The position numbers were made by a program, and so were the translations under genes. The notes below the pieces were generated by a model. That model was not told the DNA's origin. It did not search any database and saw nothing but the letters and a program-made list of their open reading frames with translations. Below, piece by piece: positions 4,496 to 30,296 of a DNA stretch of 30,863 nucleotides. Within the stretch, counting starts at the first letter, position 1. Every line of letters begins with the position of its first letter. The DNA comes from a virus, in IMG/VR virus record IMGVR_UViG_3300048067_000077, positions 1 to 30,863 of that record; one strand, given 5' to 3'.

Positions 4496-5146
4496 TTATC
4501 TCCTTCTATAAAAAATATGTCTACCAATTTTAACAGTTTTTTCAAAATCTCTTGACCATTTTGGTTTAACATAGTCAGCGTGATAATACAACGCACCGTC
4601 TGTAATGTCAAGCAAAGTTTTGAAATTTGATGCAACTAAACCCTCTGCAAGTGTAAACAGTTGATTATATGTGTAGTAATCTTTTATCTCATCTGATTTA
4701 CCATCACAGTACCAACTAAATTGACACATATTTTTAATGGGTTTCTTTAAACCTTTTTCTTTTAACCACCATTGTGATATTTTAGCATCTTCTATAACAC
4801 CACAAATTGTGTTTGGATATAATTCACTTTTTACTCTATTTAAAACTACATTGGTTACACCTAGAACTCCAGCTGTTCCCTCATTACGAGCTTCAAAATA
4901 CATATTTTTTGCAAGACAAGTAATTTCTTGTTCGTCAATATATCTATCATATTGTGCAATTTCCATATATTGCATTTTTGGTGTTCTGTCTGGTCTATTG
5001 ATACCAGCAATAATAACAACTGTTGATAATATTGATATAAAAACTTTAAAAAACACTCTGTGCCCCTCTGTGTTTTTGAATTGTAGGGAACGGTCTGGTA
5101 ATCCAACTTGTTCCCTTACAACTCTGGGTTTAGTTCTCTTGGTCAT
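4496..5146 (-). CDS. Membrane-anchored SleB-type cell wall hydrolase
   Basis: The 216-residue protein has a basic N-terminus, one membrane helix (about residues 31-49, VFFKVFISILSTVVIIAGI) and a C-terminal Hydrolase_2/SleB domain. Signatures are CLAKNMYFEARNEGTAGVLG with the predicted catalytic Glu85, TNVVLNRV, CQFSWYCDGKSD, and DGALYYHADYVKPKWS ending in IGRHIFYRR. SleB-like enzymes are lytic transglycosylases or amidases acting on peptidoglycan. The helix would act as a signal-anchor presenting the domain to the periplasm, like SAR endolysins. It is followed at once by the GTG-started gene and overlaps the upstream small membrane protein gene. It gives the phage a second cell-wall enzyme besides the M15 peptidase. 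Confidence 0.87.
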   Translation of the reverse strand: MTKRTKPRVVREQVGLPDRSLQFKNTEGHRVFFKVFISILSTVVIIAGINRPDRTPKMQYMEIAQYDRYIDEQEITCLAKNMYFEARNEGTAGVLGVTNVVLNRVKSELYPNTICGVIEDAKISQWWLKEKGLKKPIKNMCQFSWYCDGKSDEIKDYYTYNQLFTLAEGLVASNFKTLLDITDGALYYHADYVKPKWSRDFEKTVKIGRHIFYRRR

Positions 5147-18443: not shown

Positions 18444-18805
18444 TAAATATTCCTTAAAATACTTTCTACTTTTTCGTCATTCTCTATATTTTTTAACTCA
18501 CCTTCTGGAAGAATTTTTAAAAATTCCATAAATGGTTTTATATATTTCCATAACGAAGTTTCTAATTTAAATAATAAAAGTGTTGAACACGCATCTGCAC
18601 CAAAGACATTATTTAAAACAATTATGTGATTTAAAATCAATCGTTCTTTCAAAGGCCCATTGTCTTGATACTTTCTCAACAATCTCTTAATATATTTGAA
18701 TCTCTTCATATCATCAAGAAATTCTTTTTCATTATCCCCTTGAGGATTATTATAATGTTTCATCGCATACATCATAACATTATCAACAGTTATTTTCTCA
18801 AACAT
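18443..18805 (-). CDS. Conserved T4-like marine phage protein, 120 residues
   Basis: The protein begins MFEKITVDNVMMYAMKHYNN and continues EKEFLDDMKRFKYIKRLLRK, LKERLILNHIIVLNNVFGAD and LLLFKLETSLWKYIKPFMEF. These blocks match a small helical family found at this same position in T4-like cyanophage structural clusters, by memory. No enzyme motif is present. It is coupled to both neighbours by one-base overlaps. Function unknown; an assembly or neck-related role is possible. Confidence 0.7.
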   Translation of the reverse strand: MFEKITVDNVMMYAMKHYNNPQGDNEKEFLDDMKRFKYIKRLLRKYQDNGPLKERLILNHIIVLNNVFGADACSTLLLFKLETSLWKYIKPFMEFLKILPEGELKNIENDEKVESILRNI

Positions 18806-19236
18806 TATTTAATTTCGGCAGTGACCTTGAATTTTCCATTTTCTTTTTTTTCATAAACAAAATTAATGGAACGACCACCTTCAACTCTATGTGAAATACC
18901 ATCATCATTAACAAACTCATTGTGAGGTGTGTCAATGTCTTTACCAAATCTACCACCGAATTGTGTTAACGGTGCAGATATGTTTCCAGAATCTTCTACT
19001 ACATCAATATTTGGAAATGTTAATCCAATACTTGCAAGTCTTCTTCTCACAACACTAATAGTTTGTTCTGGTAACATATGATCCATTTCGGCAATACAAC
19101 CCAAAAATGAATTAAGTTTTCTAACAACACCATCATCAGACACATCAACCATATCGTGGTCGGAGTCGTGTTGTGCATTAGAGTTCGCAGGCTTCGGCCC
19201 TCGTAGTTCAGTAATATACTGTTTAAAATCTATCAT
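18805..19236 (-). CDS. Internal/virion protein with capsid-targeting leader
   Basis: The 143-residue protein begins MIDFKQYITE|LRGPKPANSN; the bar marks a predicted gp21-type cleavage after Glu10 (I-T-E). The first ten residues match the T4 internal-protein leader in spacing (M-x-x-F-x-x-(Y/F)-I-x-E). After a His/Asp-rich spacer (AQHDSDHDMVDVSDDG) come VVRKLNSFLGCIAEMDHMLP and VVRRRLASIGLTFPNI, conserved in T4-like cyanophages, and a beta-rich end (GGRSINFVYEKKENGKFKVT). It is likely packaged in or attached to the head. Function unknown. Confidence 0.68.
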   Translation of the reverse strand: MIDFKQYITELRGPKPANSNAQHDSDHDMVDVSDDGVVRKLNSFLGCIAEMDHMLPEQTISVVRRRLASIGLTFPNIDVVEDSGNISAPLTQFGGRFGKDIDTPHNEFVNDDGISHRVEGGRSINFVYEKKENGKFKVTAEIK

Positions 19237-21695: not shown

Positions 21696-22223
21696 CTATT
21701 TATAACCTAATTTTTTCAATTCGTTTAATGTTGTACTCACAGACATATGATGTATTCCGATACCACCTTTTGATTTCCACTCTTTAATATTTTTAGCGTG
21801 GTCATCAATTAAAACATTAGGTTTATTGTTTGTCATTGCAAAATCTTGTTTTTGAGAACGCCTTACTAAATGTATACGGCTTCTCTGTGTTAAACTCAAA
21901 TTCTTTCTCAACCATTTCATTTTACCAGGCACACAATTACTATCTTTTGTTGAATATGCAGATAATATATGTGAACCATATTTATTAACGAAACTCCATA
22001 ATCTCTTTGCTCCAGGCATCCATTCTAAGTTTTCCCAAAAGGATTTATTCTTGTGAATAGTTGCCCATCTTTTTGCATTATCCATTTTTACAAAGGTTTG
22101 ACCGACTTCTTTATCGGCACCTCCTAAAAAATCAACCAACACCATATCCATATCGCAAAATAGTGTTGGTAATTCCTCTTTCTCGCTTAATGTAGAATTA
22201 TAAACATCATAAAAATTTTTCAC
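21696..22223 (-). CDS. HAD-superfamily phosphatase/nucleotidase-like protein (GTG start)
   Basis: The 175-residue protein starts at GTG 22223 behind an AGAGAGGTAAA ribosome site. Its core is a HAD fold: LFCDMDMVLVDF with nucleophile Asp24 and Asp26, FWENLEWMPGAKRL, a loop with Ser (LSAYSTK) and LIDDHAKNIKEWKSKGGIGI with Asp140-Asp141. That is closest in layout to 5'(3')-deoxyribonucleotidases. The leader MKNFYDVYNSTLSE (L-S-E at 12-14) resembles capsid-targeting leaders of the neighbours. It has its own strong sigma-70 promoter although it lies amid late-type genes, so it may be made early or from both promoter types. Substrate unknown. Confidence 0.75.
   Translation of the reverse strand: MKNFYDVYNSTLSEKEELPTLFCDMDMVLVDFLGGADKEVGQTFVKMDNAKRWATIHKNKSFWENLEWMPGAKRLWSFVNKYGSHILSAYSTKDSNCVPGKMKWLRKNLSLTQRSRIHLVRRSQKQDFAMTNNKPNVLIDDHAKNIKEWKSKGGIGIHHMSVSTTLNELKKLGYK
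21697..21704 (-). promoter_or_regulatory. T4-type late promoter (TATAAATA) for the repeat structural gene
   Basis: Minus strand TATAAATA sits at the end of the HAD-type gene, 25 bases before the ATG at 21671, with an AAGGAG ribosome site between. Spacing and target (a virion gene) fit T4 late promoters well. Confidence 0.7.
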
Positions 22224-24158: not shown

Positions 24159-27035
24159 CTAATTATCAACCTTTGCACCTTTTCTCCACTGATAACAACT
24201 CCAGTATCGTGCCTTTGTTTTTGGGCCAGGATTATCACAATTATGTCTTGCTCTAAAACTCTTTAATCTGTTAGGGTCATCCCTTTTTATTTCCATATTT
24301 GGATCGCCGAAAGTCACTTTAACTACATTACCTTTTTCATTTTTCACATAAACACCAAATTTTTTATTACTTCCACTAGGTAGTCTAAATGGGTCATTTA
24401 ACTTAACTTTACGACCTTGATATTCAGATTCTACTATGTCTAATTTCTCTATATATTTATCTTCTAAATCATCTTTAGAAATCTTTGACCTCATAAGATT
24501 ATAGGTTTCTTGGAGTTTTTCTTCCCATTCATCTTTGTATCTTTCTTGATACTCTTTTCTAGTAGACGGTCTTTCAAACCAGTCTTGTATGTTGGATTCA
24601 CTCGCAACCTTTGACTTGACTGACTGTTCATAATCTTGGCCTGGTGTAACATCAAATGTATGTCTAGCATAAGGTTCTCCTATTTCATATGATTCTTTCT
24701 TCTTTTTCTTTTTAGATGCTCTTGCTTGTTTTTGTAAATCTGGGTCTGCTTTACCACCAGTTAACATTGAGTTCACTCTTGCAAATGCCCATTGTTGTGG
24801 AGTAGTGCCTGGTCTGTGTCCAGTTTTCCAAGCTGCAAGTCCTCTATCATAACTCTTCTTTAGAATACCATAAGGAACACCAGTTTGTTGTGATTTCTTA
24901 ACAAGACCAGCAATCTTCTCAGTAAGATTTACAGATTCATCTATTTCAAAATCAACTTTAGCTGCAAGGTCAGATGGTAATTTACCTTTTTTTACTAAAC
25001 CATTAATGTAATATGCAACATCTCTTGCATCAACACCTTTTACCATTTGTCCTAATGCTTGAGCAGGATTTCTATGTCCTTGTTTATGCATTTGTATGTA
25101 CATTTTAAGTATCCTATCATAACCTCTAGGGTGAGTCATTTGATGTATCTTATCATAGATTTTTCTATAATAAGGCATTTCTTTTATATCAGTTTCTTCA
25201 CCTTTTGCTCTTTGTAATTGTGCTGGTGTGGGTGCTCCCTTTTCACCTTTCTTTCTCATCTTCTCACCAGAACCTTGTTTTATTCTTTGTCTTTTTTTAT
25301 GAATGTTTGCCCATAAACTCTCGTCAACTTCTAATTGTTCTTTTAATGCCTTTAATAAATCTTTATATGATTTAGAAATTTTACTCTGAAATTTTTCTTT
25401 ATCAGATGCTTTTTTCATAGAATCATATTTTGATTGAACTGCTTGTGCAATCTTAGATGAAACTTTTACTTTCTTCTTATCCATAAATTGTACTGGAAAA
25501 TTACCTCGTAAAGATACAGACTTTCTTAACTGCATCATAATATTTTTATCTGCAGCTTTAATATCATCATCTGTTGCAAAATCATCAACATCTGCTGGGT
25601 CTATTCTTTTTTCTGAAACTTCACCATACATCTGTTTAAACTTTTTAGTATATTGTGATGGTTTAGTTTTCTTATCTTTATCACCAGGCGCTGGTTTGTA
25701 TGCATTTGGGTTATCATCGTCCATTTTCGCTCCCTTTGTAAAATGGGCATCTCTTGCCTTTTTAGTAGATACAGACATTCCTTTTTTATCACCTACACCT
25801 TTTGCATAATACTTTGCTGGTTCAGAGCCTGGACTGTCTTTTATATCTGAGTCTTGTTTTGTTTTTGTTATTTTTTTTGTTTCTTTTATTGAATGAAGAA
25901 ATGCTTTATGCACATTTTCACCATCTGTGTATTGCACATAGTTAGTACCTCTTCTAATTATCTCACCACTAGTTCCATCATTTATATTTTCTACTAAATC
26001 TCCGATTTGATAGATTGCACCTCTGACATATAAATCTCTTTCAATTTCTTCATCAGAGTATTTTGAATTCTCTTTTAAGTTCATACCTTTCCTCACATCC
26101 TTGAATAATTGATTACCATTTTTAAAACCTCGTGGTAATCCTTTTTGAAATGTATCATAATCATTATTAGTTGCAGCTGCCCTCATCTTAGATGCACTCA
26201 TTCCAGTAACACCTTCTGCATCTGGGTCTCTTTCGCCTGCACTAAAAATATTAATAGTATCAAAATCATAAAAACCGTGTCGTTTTTCTTGACCATTATA
26301 TGTTGTCAATAGTTTTTTAAACTCTGCAACTCTATCCGAACCTACCACCATATTTAATTCTACATAACCTTGTTGGTGAAAGTAAACTGCAATATCTAAA
26401 ACTGTTTTTAATTTGTTATTTGCGATTATGTTTCTTTTATGTTTTGGAAACATATCTCTCATATATGCAACTTTCTTTGCAAGTGGTAAAGGGTCTTTCT
26501 TATTGTTTTGAGAATGTGATGGGAATATATAATAGTCATCTCCACCAGCAATCTTCTTAACTTTTTCTATTAGTTTTTCGTGGCCAGTTGTTGGTGGATT
26601 AAATCTACCAAATGTAAATATAACTGATTCAGTTGCTTCTGAAAAAGTTCTAAACGATTCGTACTTAATAACCTTATTAGGTGTTTTGAAGTTTTGTTTT
26701 CTCATAATAGTCTTGTTTGTTACTTCTATTTCATTACCTTTTGTTTTAATAACAACTGGTAAATTTAAATTAGTTGACATATCTTTTAAAACAGCTTGTA
26801 TGTCTGGGTTGTTTATTATATTCTTTGCTTTGTTTTTTTGAATCTTCTTAAAAAACCTTTGTAATTCAGATACTTTTATCTCTGGACTATTTCTTGGGTC
26901 ATTCATTCTATCTACAAAGTGTTTAGTAAATTCTATATCAACTCCATATTTTTTTAATATTCTATCTGCAAATTTTTCTAAATCATTTATATCTTTTCTT
27001 GATACCTCTTCTTCTAATAACTCTCTAAGTTTCAT
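24159..27035 (-). CDS. 958-residue modular internal protein with cytidylyltransferase-like domain
   Basis: Modules in order: a leader, MKLRELLEE|EVSRK, with possible cleavage after Glu9; a small domain (about 20-125) with FTKHFVDRMNDPRNSPEI; a nucleotidyltransferase domain (138-320) with VIFTFGRFNPPTTGH, where TTGH (149-152) matches the HxGH-type site, and GMSASKMR (278-285). Next come an SH3/KOW-like unit (DLVENINDGTSGEIIRRGTN, 346-365), a conserved linker (ARDAHFTKGAKMDDDNPNAY), SLWANIHKKRQRIKQGSGEK (573-592), a DUF5824-like unit (GILKKSYDRGLAAWKTGHRP) and a C-terminal SFRARHNCDNPGPKTKARYW unit. T4-like cyanophages have the same modules, often as separate or differently combined proteins. 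It probably acts on nucleotide-linked metabolites or NAD; delivered with the virion by inference. Confidence 0.75.
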   Translation of the reverse strand: MKLRELLEEEVSRKDINDLEKFADRILKKYGVDIEFTKHFVDRMNDPRNSPEIKVSELQRFFKKIQKNKAKNIINNPDIQAVLKDMSTNLNLPVVIKTKGNEIEVTNKTIMRKQNFKTPNKVIKYESFRTFSEATESVIFTFGRFNPPTTGHEKLIEKVKKIAGGDDYYIFPSHSQNNKKDPLPLAKKVAYMRDMFPKHKRNIIANNKLKTVLDIAVYFHQQGYVELNMVVGSDRVAEFKKLLTTYNGQEKRHGFYDFDTINIFSAGERDPDAEGVTGMSASKMRAAATNNDYDTFQKGLPRGFKNGNQLFKDVRKGMNLKENSKYSDEEIERDLYVRGAIYQIGDLVENINDGTSGEIIRRGTNYVQYTDGENVHKAFLHSIKETKKITKTKQDSDIKDSPGSEPAKYYAKGVGDKKGMSVSTKKARDAHFTKGAKMDDDNPNAYKPAPGDKDKKTKPSQYTKKFKQMYGEVSEKRIDPADVDDFATDDDIKAADKNIMMQLRKSVSLRGNFPVQFMDKKKVKVSSKIAQAVQSKYDSMKKASDKEKFQSKISKSYKDLLKALKEQLEVDESLWANIHKKRQRIKQGSGEKMRKKGEKGAPTPAQLQRAKGEETDIKEMPYYRKIYDKIHQMTHPRGYDRILKMYIQMHKQGHRNPAQALGQMVKGVDARDVAYYINGLVKKGKLPSDLAAKVDFEIDESVNLTEKIAGLVKKSQQTGVPYGILKKSYDRGLAAWKTGHRPGTTPQQWAFARVNSMLTGGKADPDLQKQARASKKKKKKESYEIGEPYARHTFDVTPGQDYEQSVKSKVASESNIQDWFERPSTRKEYQERYKDEWEEKLQETYNLMRSKISKDDLEDKYIEKLDIVESEYQGRKVKLNDPFRLPSGSNKKFGVYVKNEKGNVVKVTFGDPNMEIKRDDPNRLKSFRARHNCDNPGPKTKARYWSCYQWRKGAKVDN

Positions 27036-27225: not shown

Positions 27226-27683
27226 TTTTTTGCTCTCATTTTTGCAATTCTCTCTCTGTCTGCAATTCTTACTTTTCTTTCTTGTTTCTTCGCAATCTTA
27301 TTAATTTTCTTTTTAACATTCGGTTTAGATAAAAAGTTTTGAGTTATCTGTGCTTTTCTCTGCATAGGTAAACTTCTATATGGAAGTTTGTATATCTTTT
27401 GCACTAACAAATCTATTGCTTTCTTTCTTGCAATTCTTTTAATTGCTTCTGGTTTTTTATACCTTTTAAGAGATTTCATTCTTTTCTTTAAAAACAATGC
27501 AGACTTAGCTCTTAACTTTCTTCCTGCTTTTCTTGCTCTTTGTATAAACTTAGAAATTGCAGTTACTTCATCAAGATTTTCTTTATCCATAATCTCAACA
27601 ACTTCTTGGTCAACAGAATACATATCTCTTACATCGTTATCCAAATCCATAACATACTTTTTTAACTCTGTAAATGTCTTCAT
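27222..27683 (-). CDS. Highly basic internal-type protein, 153 residues
   Basis: The protein starts MKTFTELKKYVMDLDNDVRD, a leader-like opening, then DENLDEVTAI-type sequence (KENLDEVTAISKFIQRARKA) and a very basic helical region (KSALFLKKRMKSLKRYKKPE, then KVRIADRERIAKMRAKK). About one residue in three is Lys or Arg. That composition recalls T4 internal proteins IPI-IPIII and DNA-compacting proteins. It is probably packaged with the genome and bound to DNA. There is no clear I/L-x-E site in the first twelve residues, so leader processing is uncertain. Confidence 0.66.
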   Translation of the reverse strand: MKTFTELKKYVMDLDNDVRDMYSVDQEVVEIMDKENLDEVTAISKFIQRARKAGRKLRAKSALFLKKRMKSLKRYKKPEAIKRIARKKAIDLLVQKIYKLPYRSLPMQRKAQITQNFLSKPNVKKKINKIAKKQERKVRIADRERIAKMRAKK

Positions 27684-28000
27684 TTGTTCATTTCCTTTGT
27701 TTTCTTTTTCATCTTCTCTATATAAGCACGATAGATTGCAGCCTCTTTAGTTTTACCAGCAACTTTTGCTCTTTGTTCCATTGCAATCGCAGCTTGTATT
27801 TTATGTGCGTGTTTTTTATCACTACTATTTATTTTCTTTATACTTGCCCTTGCAGTCTTTTCATCTTTAAATCCTAGTCCGTGTATTGTACCTTTAGGAT
27901 TCTCATCTGTATATAAATCAGAATGTTTATCAGACCCTGCTGGTTGACCTTTCTTTCTAGGTATTCTTGGTGCTTCTATAAATTGTTTAAATGTTTTCAT
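27680..28000 (-). CDS. Internal protein with capsid-targeting leader, 106 residues
   Basis: The protein opens MKTFKQFIEAPRIPRKKGQP; the first eight residues are almost identical to the T4 internal-protein leader MKTYQEFI. It continues SDKHSDLYTDENPKGTIHGL, GFKDEKTARASIKKINSSDK and KKHAHKIQAAIAMEQRAKVA, a domain common in T4-like cyanophages, ending in a basic helix. The leader strongly suggests entry into the prohead. The domain's biochemical role is unknown. It overlaps both neighbours by 1-4 bases. Confidence 0.72.
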   Translation of the reverse strand: MKTFKQFIEAPRIPRKKGQPAGSDKHSDLYTDENPKGTIHGLGFKDEKTARASIKKINSSDKKHAHKIQAAIAMEQRAKVAGKTKEAAIYRAYIEKMKKKTKEMNK

Positions 28001-29058
28001 TAAATCAATCCGTTATATTGCAATTTAAGTGAAGTAAATTTACCAAGTCTACCAAGTTTTGCTAATTTCTTACCAGCTCTTACACCAGAATCACTTCTAA
28101 TATTCATTTTAATTGTTTTCTTTTCCTCTGGTGTTTCAATATCAATTAACCACTCTTGAACTGAACTTTTATTTAAATATGCTTTAAAATTATTAATAAG
28201 TGGTAATAAAGATGCAAGGTCATCATTCTTTTGTTCTGCTGTTTTACCTACAGCTTTAACTAAAATTAATGGAATTTTTTCTTTTGCATCTTGTAAATTA
28301 AAATTATTTTTAACCCAATCTTTAAATTCATCTAAACTTAATGAATTTACTATATCGCAAAAATGTTCTCTACATACTTTTAACATTATAGTGTACAATT
28401 CATTTGCTCCTTTTTCATTTTCAACAAAAAAATCTAAGTATAATTGTCTAACACCATTCTTATTTGACATATAGTTATTTTTATTAGCAATACTATCTAT
28501 GCCAGGTATTTTTGAATAAACACTATCCCACAAATCATCCTCTAGTTTTTTAATCTCACTTTCTTTATTTAATTTTTTATATTGTGTACTTACATAACTA
28601 TTAAGTAATGGTTCTTTAGATTTCTTTTCACCAGCTTTTAAACTAACTCCTAGTGTATCTCCATTAGAAAAAAATATAAAAATATCACCAGCGTGATTTT
28701 TTGGAATACCAGATGGTTTTTGTCTATATCCCCAAACTACTTTTTTTATCTTTTTAGTTCTATTAATATCATACAAGTAATTTGTAATACCTATTGCATT
28801 TTCTATTTTTGTTTTTACTAGTTTTTCTGGTAATGAAGTCAATGAATCAATGACTGCAACACCAGCACTCTTATTTGCATCTACTACAAAAGAATTTTTA
28901 TCTTTTTTTAAATCTAATTTATATAAAAACTTTTTAAAATCTTCAACTGATGATGGTTTAAATTTTAAATTAAATGCAAGTGTTGGAAAAAGTTCTGTTA
29001 TTGATGCAGTTGCAGTAGTATCAACTCTTTCACTTATGAACTGTCTAAATCTTAACAT
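28000..29058 (-). CDS. Internal protein with leader and a possible PD-(D/E)XK-like nuclease domain
   Basis: I start it at the ATG at 29058 (352 residues: MLRFRQFISE|RVDTTATA, I-S-E at 8-10); a GTG three bases earlier would add one residue. The leader fits the gp21 rule. The central part VVWGYRQKPSGIPKNHAGDI then FIFFSNGDTLGVSLKAGEKK resembles the D...(E/S)xK strands of restriction-type nucleases, with Asp125 and Lys141 (ATG numbering). The C-terminus, IRSDSGVRAGKKLAKLGRLG, is basic. If active it could degrade host DNA when injected. The nuclease call is a hypothesis; the fold is not certain. Confidence 0.66.
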   Translation of the reverse strand: MLRFRQFISERVDTTATASITELFPTLAFNLKFKPSSVEDFKKFLYKLDLKKDKNSFVVDANKSAGVAVIDSLTSLPEKLVKTKIENAIGITNYLYDINRTKKIKKVVWGYRQKPSGIPKNHAGDIFIFFSNGDTLGVSLKAGEKKSKEPLLNSYVSTQYKKLNKESEIKKLEDDLWDSVYSKIPGIDSIANKNNYMSNKNGVRQLYLDFFVENEKGANELYTIMLKVCREHFCDIVNSLSLDEFKDWVKNNFNLQDAKEKIPLILVKAVGKTAEQKNDDLASLLPLINNFKAYLNKSSVQEWLIDIETPEEKKTIKMNIRSDSGVRAGKKLAKLGRLGKFTSLKLQYNGLI

Positions 29059-30296
29059 CACTTATCCCAATTCTTTATTGCAGTAAAGTTATTAAAACTA
29101 AACTCCATTCTATCAACAAGTTTTACGGCCTTACCATCATTATTAATTGCGACATAACCTTCTGGATTTGTAACCTTAAATCCATTTTTCGTTTTTATAA
29201 AGGTGTCCGTCAGTTGTTTAACTGAATTCAACTTTTTAACAATTAACATCTTTGCGGCCACAAGGGCTTGTTGAAAAGAAATGACACTTTCTATATTTCT
29301 GATATGTTTCTTAAACTCTCTCAGATACTCGTTCTTATTTCTTTCAATCTTTTCTTTTGCTCCGAGTGTCTTTACTTTGTCCTTATTCTTATCAAAATGG
29401 TTTGCAATATGGTCAAGATATCCTTGAGCGTGTTGCCTTACATTTTTGATAGTTTGTCCTTGTCTTACTTTTAAATTATTATATGTTTTCAGACTAGCAC
29501 CAGACAAATTCCCTACCATTGAATTTTGAAGTCTAATAAACTTCTCTAACAATGATGAATTTATTCGTCTAAAAATCTTACCAACTGTTGATAAGTATAA
29601 TGTTACTTCTTCTGTTTCTGATTGAGTAAAAGTTGCTTTACCAGAAACATCTTTAAATGAAGCATTATCCATCCATACACTATCTATATTTTTTAATCCT
29701 TTTATATCCACACCGAATTTTGCTGACATTGATGGCAAATTATCGCCTTCATAGGTGGTGTGCCATACAACTCCAATTTGTGATTTAGAGATTTGTCCAG
29801 CAAGTTCAGAACCCATAGGTGCAGCATAAACGATAGTGTTAGGCTGAAAAGAAATAAAGGTTTGTTCATCAATTTTCTCCTTTTTTAAATCTTTCTTGGT
29901 GAACATTAAATCACCTTGAATAACATTTTTAATTCCTAATTTTTTAAATTCTTTTAATGCGATTGCAAACTTGTCTTTTAAATCACCAGAAACATCTATT
30001 TCTGATTCTTCTTTATACAACTTTGGATTTACATTAAATACTGATTTCTTTGCGACAAAGAACTTGCCATCTGATGGGTCAATGCCTGCAAATATAGCAG
30101 GGGCCCCGTCCCACTTAACAGTCATATTAACTGAACCTTTAGATGACCCAGATAACATATCTCTTAATGATTGTAGAAAATTAATTGCACCTCTACCCCC
30201 ACCGACACCAAAGTTGAGTATCTCATCTTCCAAGTGTTCAAGGTGTAGATTTTTGCCTTGTTTATCTTCTAATAAAAATTCTTTAAATGTTAACAT
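29058..30296 (-). CDS. Internal protein with leader and ligase-like nucleotidyltransferase motifs
   Basis: The 412-residue protein begins MLTFKEFLLE|DKQGKNLH, with an L-L-E site at 8-10. Inside is a possible covalent-nucleotidyltransferase core: motif I TVKWDGAPAIFAG with Lys61 (KxDG), a motif III candidate VIQGDLMF (125-132), motif IV candidate NPEGYVAI (377-384) and motif V candidate KAVKLV (389-394). A long helical insert (about 235-355) separates III and IV, unusual for the superfamily. The gene may be the phage family known as DUF6267, by memory. It could be a packaged RNA or DNA ligase. Overlapping early and late promoters lie upstream. Confidence 0.68.
   Translation of the reverse strand: MLTFKEFLLEDKQGKNLHLEHLEDEILNFGVGGGRGAINFLQSLRDMLSGSSKGSVNMTVKWDGAPAIFAGIDPSDGKFFVAKKSVFNVNPKLYKEESEIDVSGDLKDKFAIALKEFKKLGIKNVIQGDLMFTKKDLKKEKIDEQTFISFQPNTIVYAAPMGSELAGQISKSQIGVVWHTTYEGDNLPSMSAKFGVDIKGLKNIDSVWMDNASFKDVSGKATFTQSETEEVTLYLSTVGKIFRRINSSLLEKFIRLQNSMVGNLSGASLKTYNNLKVRQGQTIKNVRQHAQGYLDHIANHFDKNKDKVKTLGAKEKIERNKNEYLREFKKHIRNIESVISFQQALVAAKMLIVKKLNSVKQLTDTFIKTKNGFKVTNPEGYVAINNDGKAVKLVDRMEFSFNNFTAIKNWDK

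Follow-up and report, generated by a model that had tools for sequence, protein, structure and literature searches.

The described proteins closest to the one studied here are the internal head proteins of bacteriophage T4 and the RNA ligases of the Rnl2 type. The T4 internal proteins ipII and ipIII start with MKTYQEFIAEA (NC_000866). Targeting and processing depend on positions 4, 7, 8 and 10 of the T4 capsid-targeting sequence, which is cut after [LI]xE (PMC9026906). For T4 Rnl2, the reference residues of our alignment were K35, R55, E99, F119-D120, E204, K225 and K227. In this study, we sought to characterize a gene of a 30.9-kb virus record (IMG/VR IMGVR_UViG_3300048067_000077; hereafter the window, meaning the whole stretch of 30,863 nucleotides), whose gene set is like those of the Methylophilales phage Melnitz and of cyanomyoviruses. 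The gene encodes a protein of 412 amino acids (aa) belonging to the family DUF6267. We favour, with moderate confidence, a reading in which DUF6267 is a new family of covalent nucleotidyltransferases that would be loaded into the capsid, injected together with a nuclease and used to seal strand breaks.

Identity and distribution of the DUF6267 family

The Pfam profile DUF6267 (PF19782) matched the protein over its full length (E 4.5e-98, 329.5 bits against a cut-off of 27), with residues 16-407 aligned to positions 1-375 of the 376 in the profile. The protein also belongs to phrog_455 (unknown function). A tblastn search revealed DUF6267 relatives in 452 phage records, mainly Synechococcus and Prochlorococcus myoviruses, and further in phages of Methylophilales, Pelagibacter, Vibrio, Stenotrophomonas, Pseudoalteromonas and Xanthomonas. 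More than 450 sequenced phages carry the family, nearly all of them marine and T4-like, with cyanobacteria, SAR11 and OM43 as hosts; Pfam, PHROGs and NCBIfam assign it no function. DUF6267 was named in no paper found by our literature search, and it is not among the families treated in the consulted parts of papers on phage RNA repair and NAD+ (nicotinamide adenine dinucleotide) systems, which cover Rnl1, Rnl2, RtcB and NadM. An earlier reading of the window from its letters alone (the sequence-only reading) had proposed a new subfamily; what is new is the function, the family itself having been defined before as DUF6267 or phrog_455.

Predicted fold of the DUF6267 protein

An AlphaFold2 (AF2) model of the protein, built with 77 sequences, had a mean predicted local distance difference test (pLDDT) score of 88.3 and a predicted template modelling (pTM) score of 0.84. 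When the 1000 candidates of Foldseek were aligned to this model with VIA-align, 49 of the 50 best matches were RNA or DNA ligases, the exception being DnaK. The best match was the N. gruberi RNA ligase (Z 8.2 over 181 residues, 3.6 Å), followed by T. brucei REL1 (Z 7.9), Trl1 (7.6), T4 Rnl2 (7.4) and T4 Rnl1 (7.4), and lower down by the P. pacificus RNA ligase (6.5) and human DNA ligase 1 (LIG1, about 6). In a viral structure library, 16 entries of the DUF6267 family itself came first, and RNA or DNA ligases and capping enzymes recurred at ranks 19, 21, 22, 26, 28-31, 38 and 45. A Pfam scan of 77 DUF6267 members gave no match to a ligase family, and phmmer and profile searches of PDB sequences offered no route to known ligases. 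Weak matches to Cor1, SLBP and families of that sort were attributed to noise from sequence composition.

On the predicted model, it is very likely that DUF6267 belongs to the superfamily of covalent nucleotidyltransferases (ligases and capping enzymes), because the VIA-align matches are consistent and the residues expected in that active site are invariant (see below). The sequence-only reading had proposed such a core and named structure prediction with a fold search as the check; the outcome of that check, a model that matches nucleotidyltransferases, agrees with it.

Conservation of the catalytic motifs

DUF6267 proteins were taken from 249 fetched loci, and the 132 that remained non-redundant at 95% identity were used for the invariance counts. 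The motif registers follow from residue conservation, from secondary structure and from where the VIA alignments end; that of motif Ia was set by eye (Table 1). Residues K61, D63, G64, A65, P66, K84, Q127, D129, H179, E379, G380, V382, K392 and V394 are invariant in 132/132 proteins, and the clades that share all motif residues are only about 26-31% identical to the query. The motifs had been predicted to occur in the order TVKWDGAP (59-66, with K61), QGDLM (127-131), NPEGYVAI (377-384) and KAVKLV (389-394), and they do; the full-length family match, the 452 records with relatives and the 132/132 conservation argue that they are not there by chance. A65 and P66 are not universal, since the protein of phage S-SCSM1, which keeps the catalytic positions, reads KMDGIA where the others read KWDGAP. 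G128 is replaced by Ala or Cys in a short cyanophage clade, and T180 and Y182, next to the invariant H179 at the motif IIIa position, are each kept in 131/132 proteins. In motif V, the lysine K392 is invariant, but the second lysine of a KxK motif is a valine (V394). NAD+-dependent ligases likewise have a single lysine at motif V.

The sequence-only reading had described a gap of roughly 250 residues filled by helices. D129 and E379 are indeed 250 residues apart, but only residues 225-357 or so are helical, residues 131-211 being beta-rich in the AF2 model. This distance is 248-250 residues across the clade of the 412-aa protein, 240-247 in the clade of DSL-LC02 and S-PM2, 172-219 in remote members and 163-169 in the short cyanophage clade. 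The length variation of the family falls in the helical block: the span 211-364 measures 153 residues in the 412-aa protein vs 93-99 in the short clade.

Rnl2-type ligases (T4 Rnl2, T. brucei REL1, N. gruberi RNA ligase) share with DUF6267 the predicted nucleotidyltransferase core, a motif I Lys with a Gly three residues on, an AK[RK][TS] motif Ia, a GE/GD motif III, an N-terminal SLEN-like segment (HLEHLE in our protein) and an FS after motif V. Lys84 occupies the place of Arg55 in T4 Rnl2 (CAKRTG), and motif IV, EGYV, is identical in the two proteins. The ends of the VIA alignment place F399-S400 opposite F231-S232 of Rnl2, so that Rnl2 K225 is the probable counterpart of K392, which would imply a one-residue insertion after the strand. 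At the motif IIIa position, DUF6267 has HTxY and Rnl2 has FDI. Unlike Rnl2-type ligases, DUF6267 has a helical insert before motif IV, and the 412-aa protein carries a capsid-targeting leader and has a nuclease partner. T4 Rnl1 and the ligase domain of fungal Trl1, both among the structural matches above, have a KxDG motif I, as does DUF6267. In contrast to these enzymes, no tRNA-repair partner was found in the gene module of the 412-aa protein, and the marine genomes carrying DUF6267 gave no Rnl1 match.

Table 1. Features of the DUF6267 locus, in coordinates of the window.
Feature	Coordinates	Strand	Basis
DUF6267 protein, predicted covalent nucleotidyltransferase (ligase-type), candidate internal head protein, 412 aa	29058..30296	minus	Pfam PF19782, AF2 model, VIA-align
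Leader, residues 1-10, MLTFKEFLLE, capsid-targeting-like, ending in an LxE prohead-protease-type site	30267..30296	minus	T4 ipII/ipIII comparison
Motif I, VKWDGAP (residues 60-66), candidate nucleophile Lys61	30099..30119	minus	K61, D63, G64 132/132
Motif Ia-like, VAKKSVF (residues 81-87)	30036..30056	minus	K84 132/132; Rnl2 alignment
Motif III, QGDL (residues 127-130)	29907..29918	minus	Q127, D129 132/132
Motif IIIa position, GVVWHTTY (residues 175-182)	29751..29774	minus	Invariant His179
Helical insert, residues 225-357 (about 130 residues)	29226..29624	minus	Seven helices in AF2 model
Motif IV, EGYV (residues 379-382)	29151..29162	minus	E379, G380, V382 132/132
Motif V, KLVDR (residues 392-396)	29109..29123	minus	Single invariant Lys392, 132/132
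HinP1I-like PD-..-SxK nuclease (putative), 352 aa, leader MLRFRQFISE	28000..29058	minus	AF2, Foldseek, VIA
Basic open reading frame, 106 aa, leader-like MKTFKQFIEA	27680..28000	minus	Start overlaps nuclease stop by one base
958-aa protein: HIGH-type nucleotidylyltransferase domain (about 134-423) and DUF5824	24159..27035	minus	Profile matches

A capsid-targeting-like leader at the N-terminus

The first ten residues of the DUF6267 protein fit the functional positions 4, 7, 8 and 10 of the T4 sequence and its [LI]xE site. In this respect the protein is like the T4 internal proteins (IPI, IPII and IPIII) and Alt, which have the same kind of N-terminus and cleavage site; the rest of the protein, however, bears no relation to them and is a predicted ligase-type enzyme. 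Other leaders of this type occur in the window, in the nuclease, in the open reading frame (ORF) at 18805-19236 (MIDFKQYITE) and, as a near miss, in the ORF at 27680-28000. The strict pattern M..[FY]..[FY][ILVM].E was found in none of 9,423 internal 10-mers starting with Met, and in 28 of the 82 DUF6267 proteins of the clade of the 412-aa protein. The remaining leader varies in this clade, and a [LIVMF]xE site is kept 4-5 residues before NLHLEH in 81/81 scorable members. Bacterial genome bins contributed 36 further relatives, probably encoded for the most part on phage contigs, and at least 11 of these have textbook leaders (MHTFKQFLAE, MYSFKQYLNE and others).

In cyanophages, the gene next to DUF6267 encodes a cytidylyltransferase resembling nicotinamide mononucleotide (NMN) adenylyltransferase (NMNAT), and 135 of 157 of these proteins carry a leader (e.g. 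MKKFSAFLTEA). Among control neighbours, leaders were found in 0/91 gp41, 0/16 RecA, 0/47 oxygenases and 1/92 MazG proteins. Cytidylyltransferase/NMNAT-like proteins have been detected in the virions of S-SM1 (PMC3037559), S-SCSM1 (PMC9602691), S-SZBM1 (PMC9146016) and S-CREM2 (PMC10665884). The S-SCSM1 protein starts with MKSFLQFLKEA and that of S-SZBM1 with MRFRQFIIEA. The leader is thus tied to a virion protein only through this leader-bearing partner, which other groups found in virions. Judging from the sequences, the DUF6267 protein is probably delivered by the capsid in this phage and its relatives. Packaging, proposed by the sequence-only reading, is made likely by the leader itself, the 81/81 cleavage-type sites and the textbook leaders of further relatives.

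A 143-aa protein of the window with no family match (18805-19236, minus strand) has the strict leader given above and is another candidate injected protein. The run of genes on one strand that holds the candidate internal proteins also includes, at 21696-22223 (minus strand), a 5'-3' deoxyribonucleotidase-like protein (phrog_2643). Nucleases of different families adjoining DUF6267 share an N-terminal segment of a second kind (about YVRQLRPRxESY), which may be a targeting leader as well (loci L318 2932-, L319 292-, L329 1569-, L019 2622-, L030 1015- and L018 1002-).

A putative nuclease coupled to DUF6267

The nuclease ATG shares one base with the DUF6267 stop (TGATG), an overlap by which the two genes are judged to be translationally coupled. 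The AF2 model of the nuclease (pLDDT 90.7) matched HinP1I in Foldseek (E 2.2e-3, probability 0.93) and in VIA-align (Z 7.9 over 210 residues), with ACE1, Dna2, MspI and AdnAB below. Its invariant residues are E22, D125, S139 and K141, and the fold and D..xK residues of the PD-(D/E)XK class are both found on the predicted model. The nuclease is like the restriction endonucleases HinP1I and MspI in fold and in the D..xK catalytic pattern. Unlike in these enzymes, a Ser stands at the second acidic (or Gln/Asn) position, no methyltransferase partner was seen, and the gene is phage-borne and carries a capsid-targeting leader.

The linkage was found in both search directions. In a scan from the nuclease, 47 of 68 loci had DUF6267 as the immediate neighbour on the same strand, and two more had it nearby. 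In other clades the neighbour of DUF6267 is a member of phrog_1462, phrog_3060, phrog_22045 or a Melnitz-type family, all of which show the motif D..S[LM]K, so that DUF6267 pairs with at least five nuclease-like families in all; AF2 models were made for the DUF6267 protein and the nuclease at 28000-29058, and the other families are called nucleases by motif only. In S-SCSM1, the phrog_1462 protein SSCSM1_90 (L400 42459-43793), which has a D..SLK motif, adjoins the NMNAT gene and is annotated as a virion protein, and DUF6267 (SSCSM1_257, L403 2907-3791) lies far from this module. SSCSM1_90 bears its annotation though it has no capsid-targeting-like leader.

Known ligases in genomes carrying DUF6267

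Genomes were searched with models for DNA_ligase_A_M, NAD+ ligase, RNA_ligase, T4 Rnl1 and RtcB. None of 14 marine T4-like genomes with DUF6267 gave a PF01068 or PF09414 match, and the 11 marine records tested further gave no PF01653, PF09511 or RtcB match; S-SCSM1, S-SZBM1 and HTVC008M were searched for DNA_ligase_A_M and RNA_ligase. In T4, XaC1 and XG4, the DNA ligase, Rnl2 and Rnl1 were each matched, T4 being found by three models. DUF6267 is present in all 11 marine records, XaC1 and XG4, and absent from T4. The missing ligases are suggestive at most, because such phages could use the host ligase. The strong form, in which DUF6267 simply replaces missing ligases, was rejected, since XaC1 and XG4 hold the three known ligases too. 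Naming DUF6267 as ligase-type gives the marine T4-like phages that have no recognised DNA or RNA ligase a candidate ligase.

Proposed function and alternative explanations

In the mechanism that we propose, the leader would direct loading of the DUF6267 protein into the prohead, where the prohead protease would trim it at the LxE site, and the protein would enter the cell with the genome, accompanied by the HinP1I-like nuclease to which it is translationally coupled. As the fold and residues suggest, Lys61 would attack the alpha-phosphate of adenosine triphosphate (ATP) or NAD+ and take up adenosine monophosphate (AMP), with Lys84, Asp129, Glu379 and Lys392 surrounding the nucleotide. More tentatively, the AMP would be passed to a 5'-phosphate end and the strand break sealed. 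The helical insert probably stands in for the separate nucleic-acid-binding domains of other ligases.

On the model, ligase activity is likely. Sealing, with DNA perhaps a likelier substrate than RNA, is suggested by the partner being a nuclease and by the replication genes around DUF6267 (gp43, RecA, gp41 and MazG). NAD+-dependent sealing with recycling of NMN is possible because the HIGH domain of the partner most resembles NMN adenylyltransferases. The conserved neighbours, a nuclease resembling type II restriction enzymes and an NMNAT-like protein, hint at DNA or NAD+ no less than at tRNA; nothing specific speaks for tRNA repair or a role like that of T4 Rnl1, two possibilities raised by the sequence-only reading. 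The leader implies that the enzyme may arrive ready-made with the injected genome, and, with a putative DNA-cutting enzyme adjacent, the phage may therefore inject a cutting-and-sealing kit. We regard as improbable the fuller version, a capsid-delivered module made of an exchangeable restriction-type nuclease, an NAD+-dependent DUF6267 ligase and an NMNAT-like partner recycling NMN to NAD+. If true, it would provide the sole ligase of marine T4-like phages without gp30, Rnl1 and Rnl2.

Several results weigh against a packaged sealing enzyme. Foldseek searches of the PDB with the DUF6267 model gave nothing significant, ligases appearing only among the weak matches, and hhalign against a 13-member T4 Rnl2 alignment gave no homology (probability about 0.1%, E 0.43-0.56). 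A VIA Z near 8 falls inside the noise range of the aligner and is not decisive alone, so the case for a ligase fold rests on the consistent matches together with the motifs. Motif III has Asp129 in DUF6267 vs Glu99 in T4 Rnl2, and motif V one lysine vs the two of KxK (K225, K227). Cyanophage DUF6267 proteins begin directly at HLEH, leaderless; the leaderless S-SCSM1 copy is labelled hypothetical and its module partners are labelled virion proteins. XaC1 and XG4 carry DUF6267 beside a DNA ligase, Rnl1 and Rnl2.

A possible but doubtful alternative, which overlaps with the proposal above and adds a specific purpose, casts DUF6267 as the half of a nuclease cassette that provides immunity or repair: its partner, the nuclease, would cut host or rival-phage DNA and DUF6267 would reseal breaks in the DNA of its own phage, a role akin to methyltransferase protection in restriction-modification. 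The pairing of one conserved DUF6267 with at least five exchangeable nuclease-like families bearing a D..SxK motif, the coupled translation and the HinP1I-like fold are consistent with it, but the activity and target of the nuclease are only putative, and in S-SCSM1 the two genes lie in separate places.

Somewhat less probable is an active covalent nucleotidyltransferase that seals no strands and, after injection, caps, adenylates or guanylates an RNA, a nucleotide or a protein, thereby altering host or phage function. Such an enzyme would have the same fold and motifs as ligases, and it would fit the NMNAT-type neighbours, the unusual helical insert and the departures from the classical form in motifs III, IIIa and V; T4 also packages host-modifying enzymes such as Alt (PMC9026906). 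The constant neighbour is, however, a nuclease, a better fit to sealing, and the best structural matches are ligases, not capping enzymes.

We consider it unlikely that DUF6267 is an intracellular replication or repair ligase of phages without gp30, Rnl1 and Rnl2, never injected and with a leader that serves another role. Its position in the replication block of DSL-LC02 and S-PM2 (gp43-RecA-gp41-MazG-nuclease-DUF6267), the 14 marine genomes without a recognised ligase and the many leaderless cyanophage copies agree with this, but the leader and protease-type site are conserved in the clade of the 412-aa protein and beyond, and a protein that was found in virions starts with the same leader. 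It is very improbable that DUF6267 is a non-catalytic protein with a degenerate ligase fold that serves a structural role inside the head: the fold match is modest, and T4 IPII and IPIII are without settled function (PMC9026906), but all candidate catalytic residues are kept in 132/132 proteins although these otherwise diverge to less than 30% identity.

NMNAT-like partner and gene fusions

PADLOC found no defence system, giving weak matches only. Judged by profile only, the HIGH domain of the 958-aa protein resembles NMN adenylyltransferases most, with scores under the curated cut-offs; cyanophage relatives of this nucleotidylyltransferase domain are virion proteins. The NMNAT-like/cytidylyltransferase proteins of cyanophage virions share gene module and leader type with DUF6267; unlike DUF6267, they belong to the HIGH superfamily and are not covalent Lys-AMP enzymes. 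In S-PM2d138 (L086 4992-6767), DUF6267 is fused with an NMNAT-like cytidylyltransferase in one 591-aa protein. In another locus (L029, ORF ending at 4936), DUF6267 is preceded in the same reading frame by the N-terminal domain known from the 958-aa protein, and the leader-like KLSFEQFIKE lies between the two fused domains. This arrangement suggests, from sequence, a head polyprotein that would be cleaved by the prohead protease.
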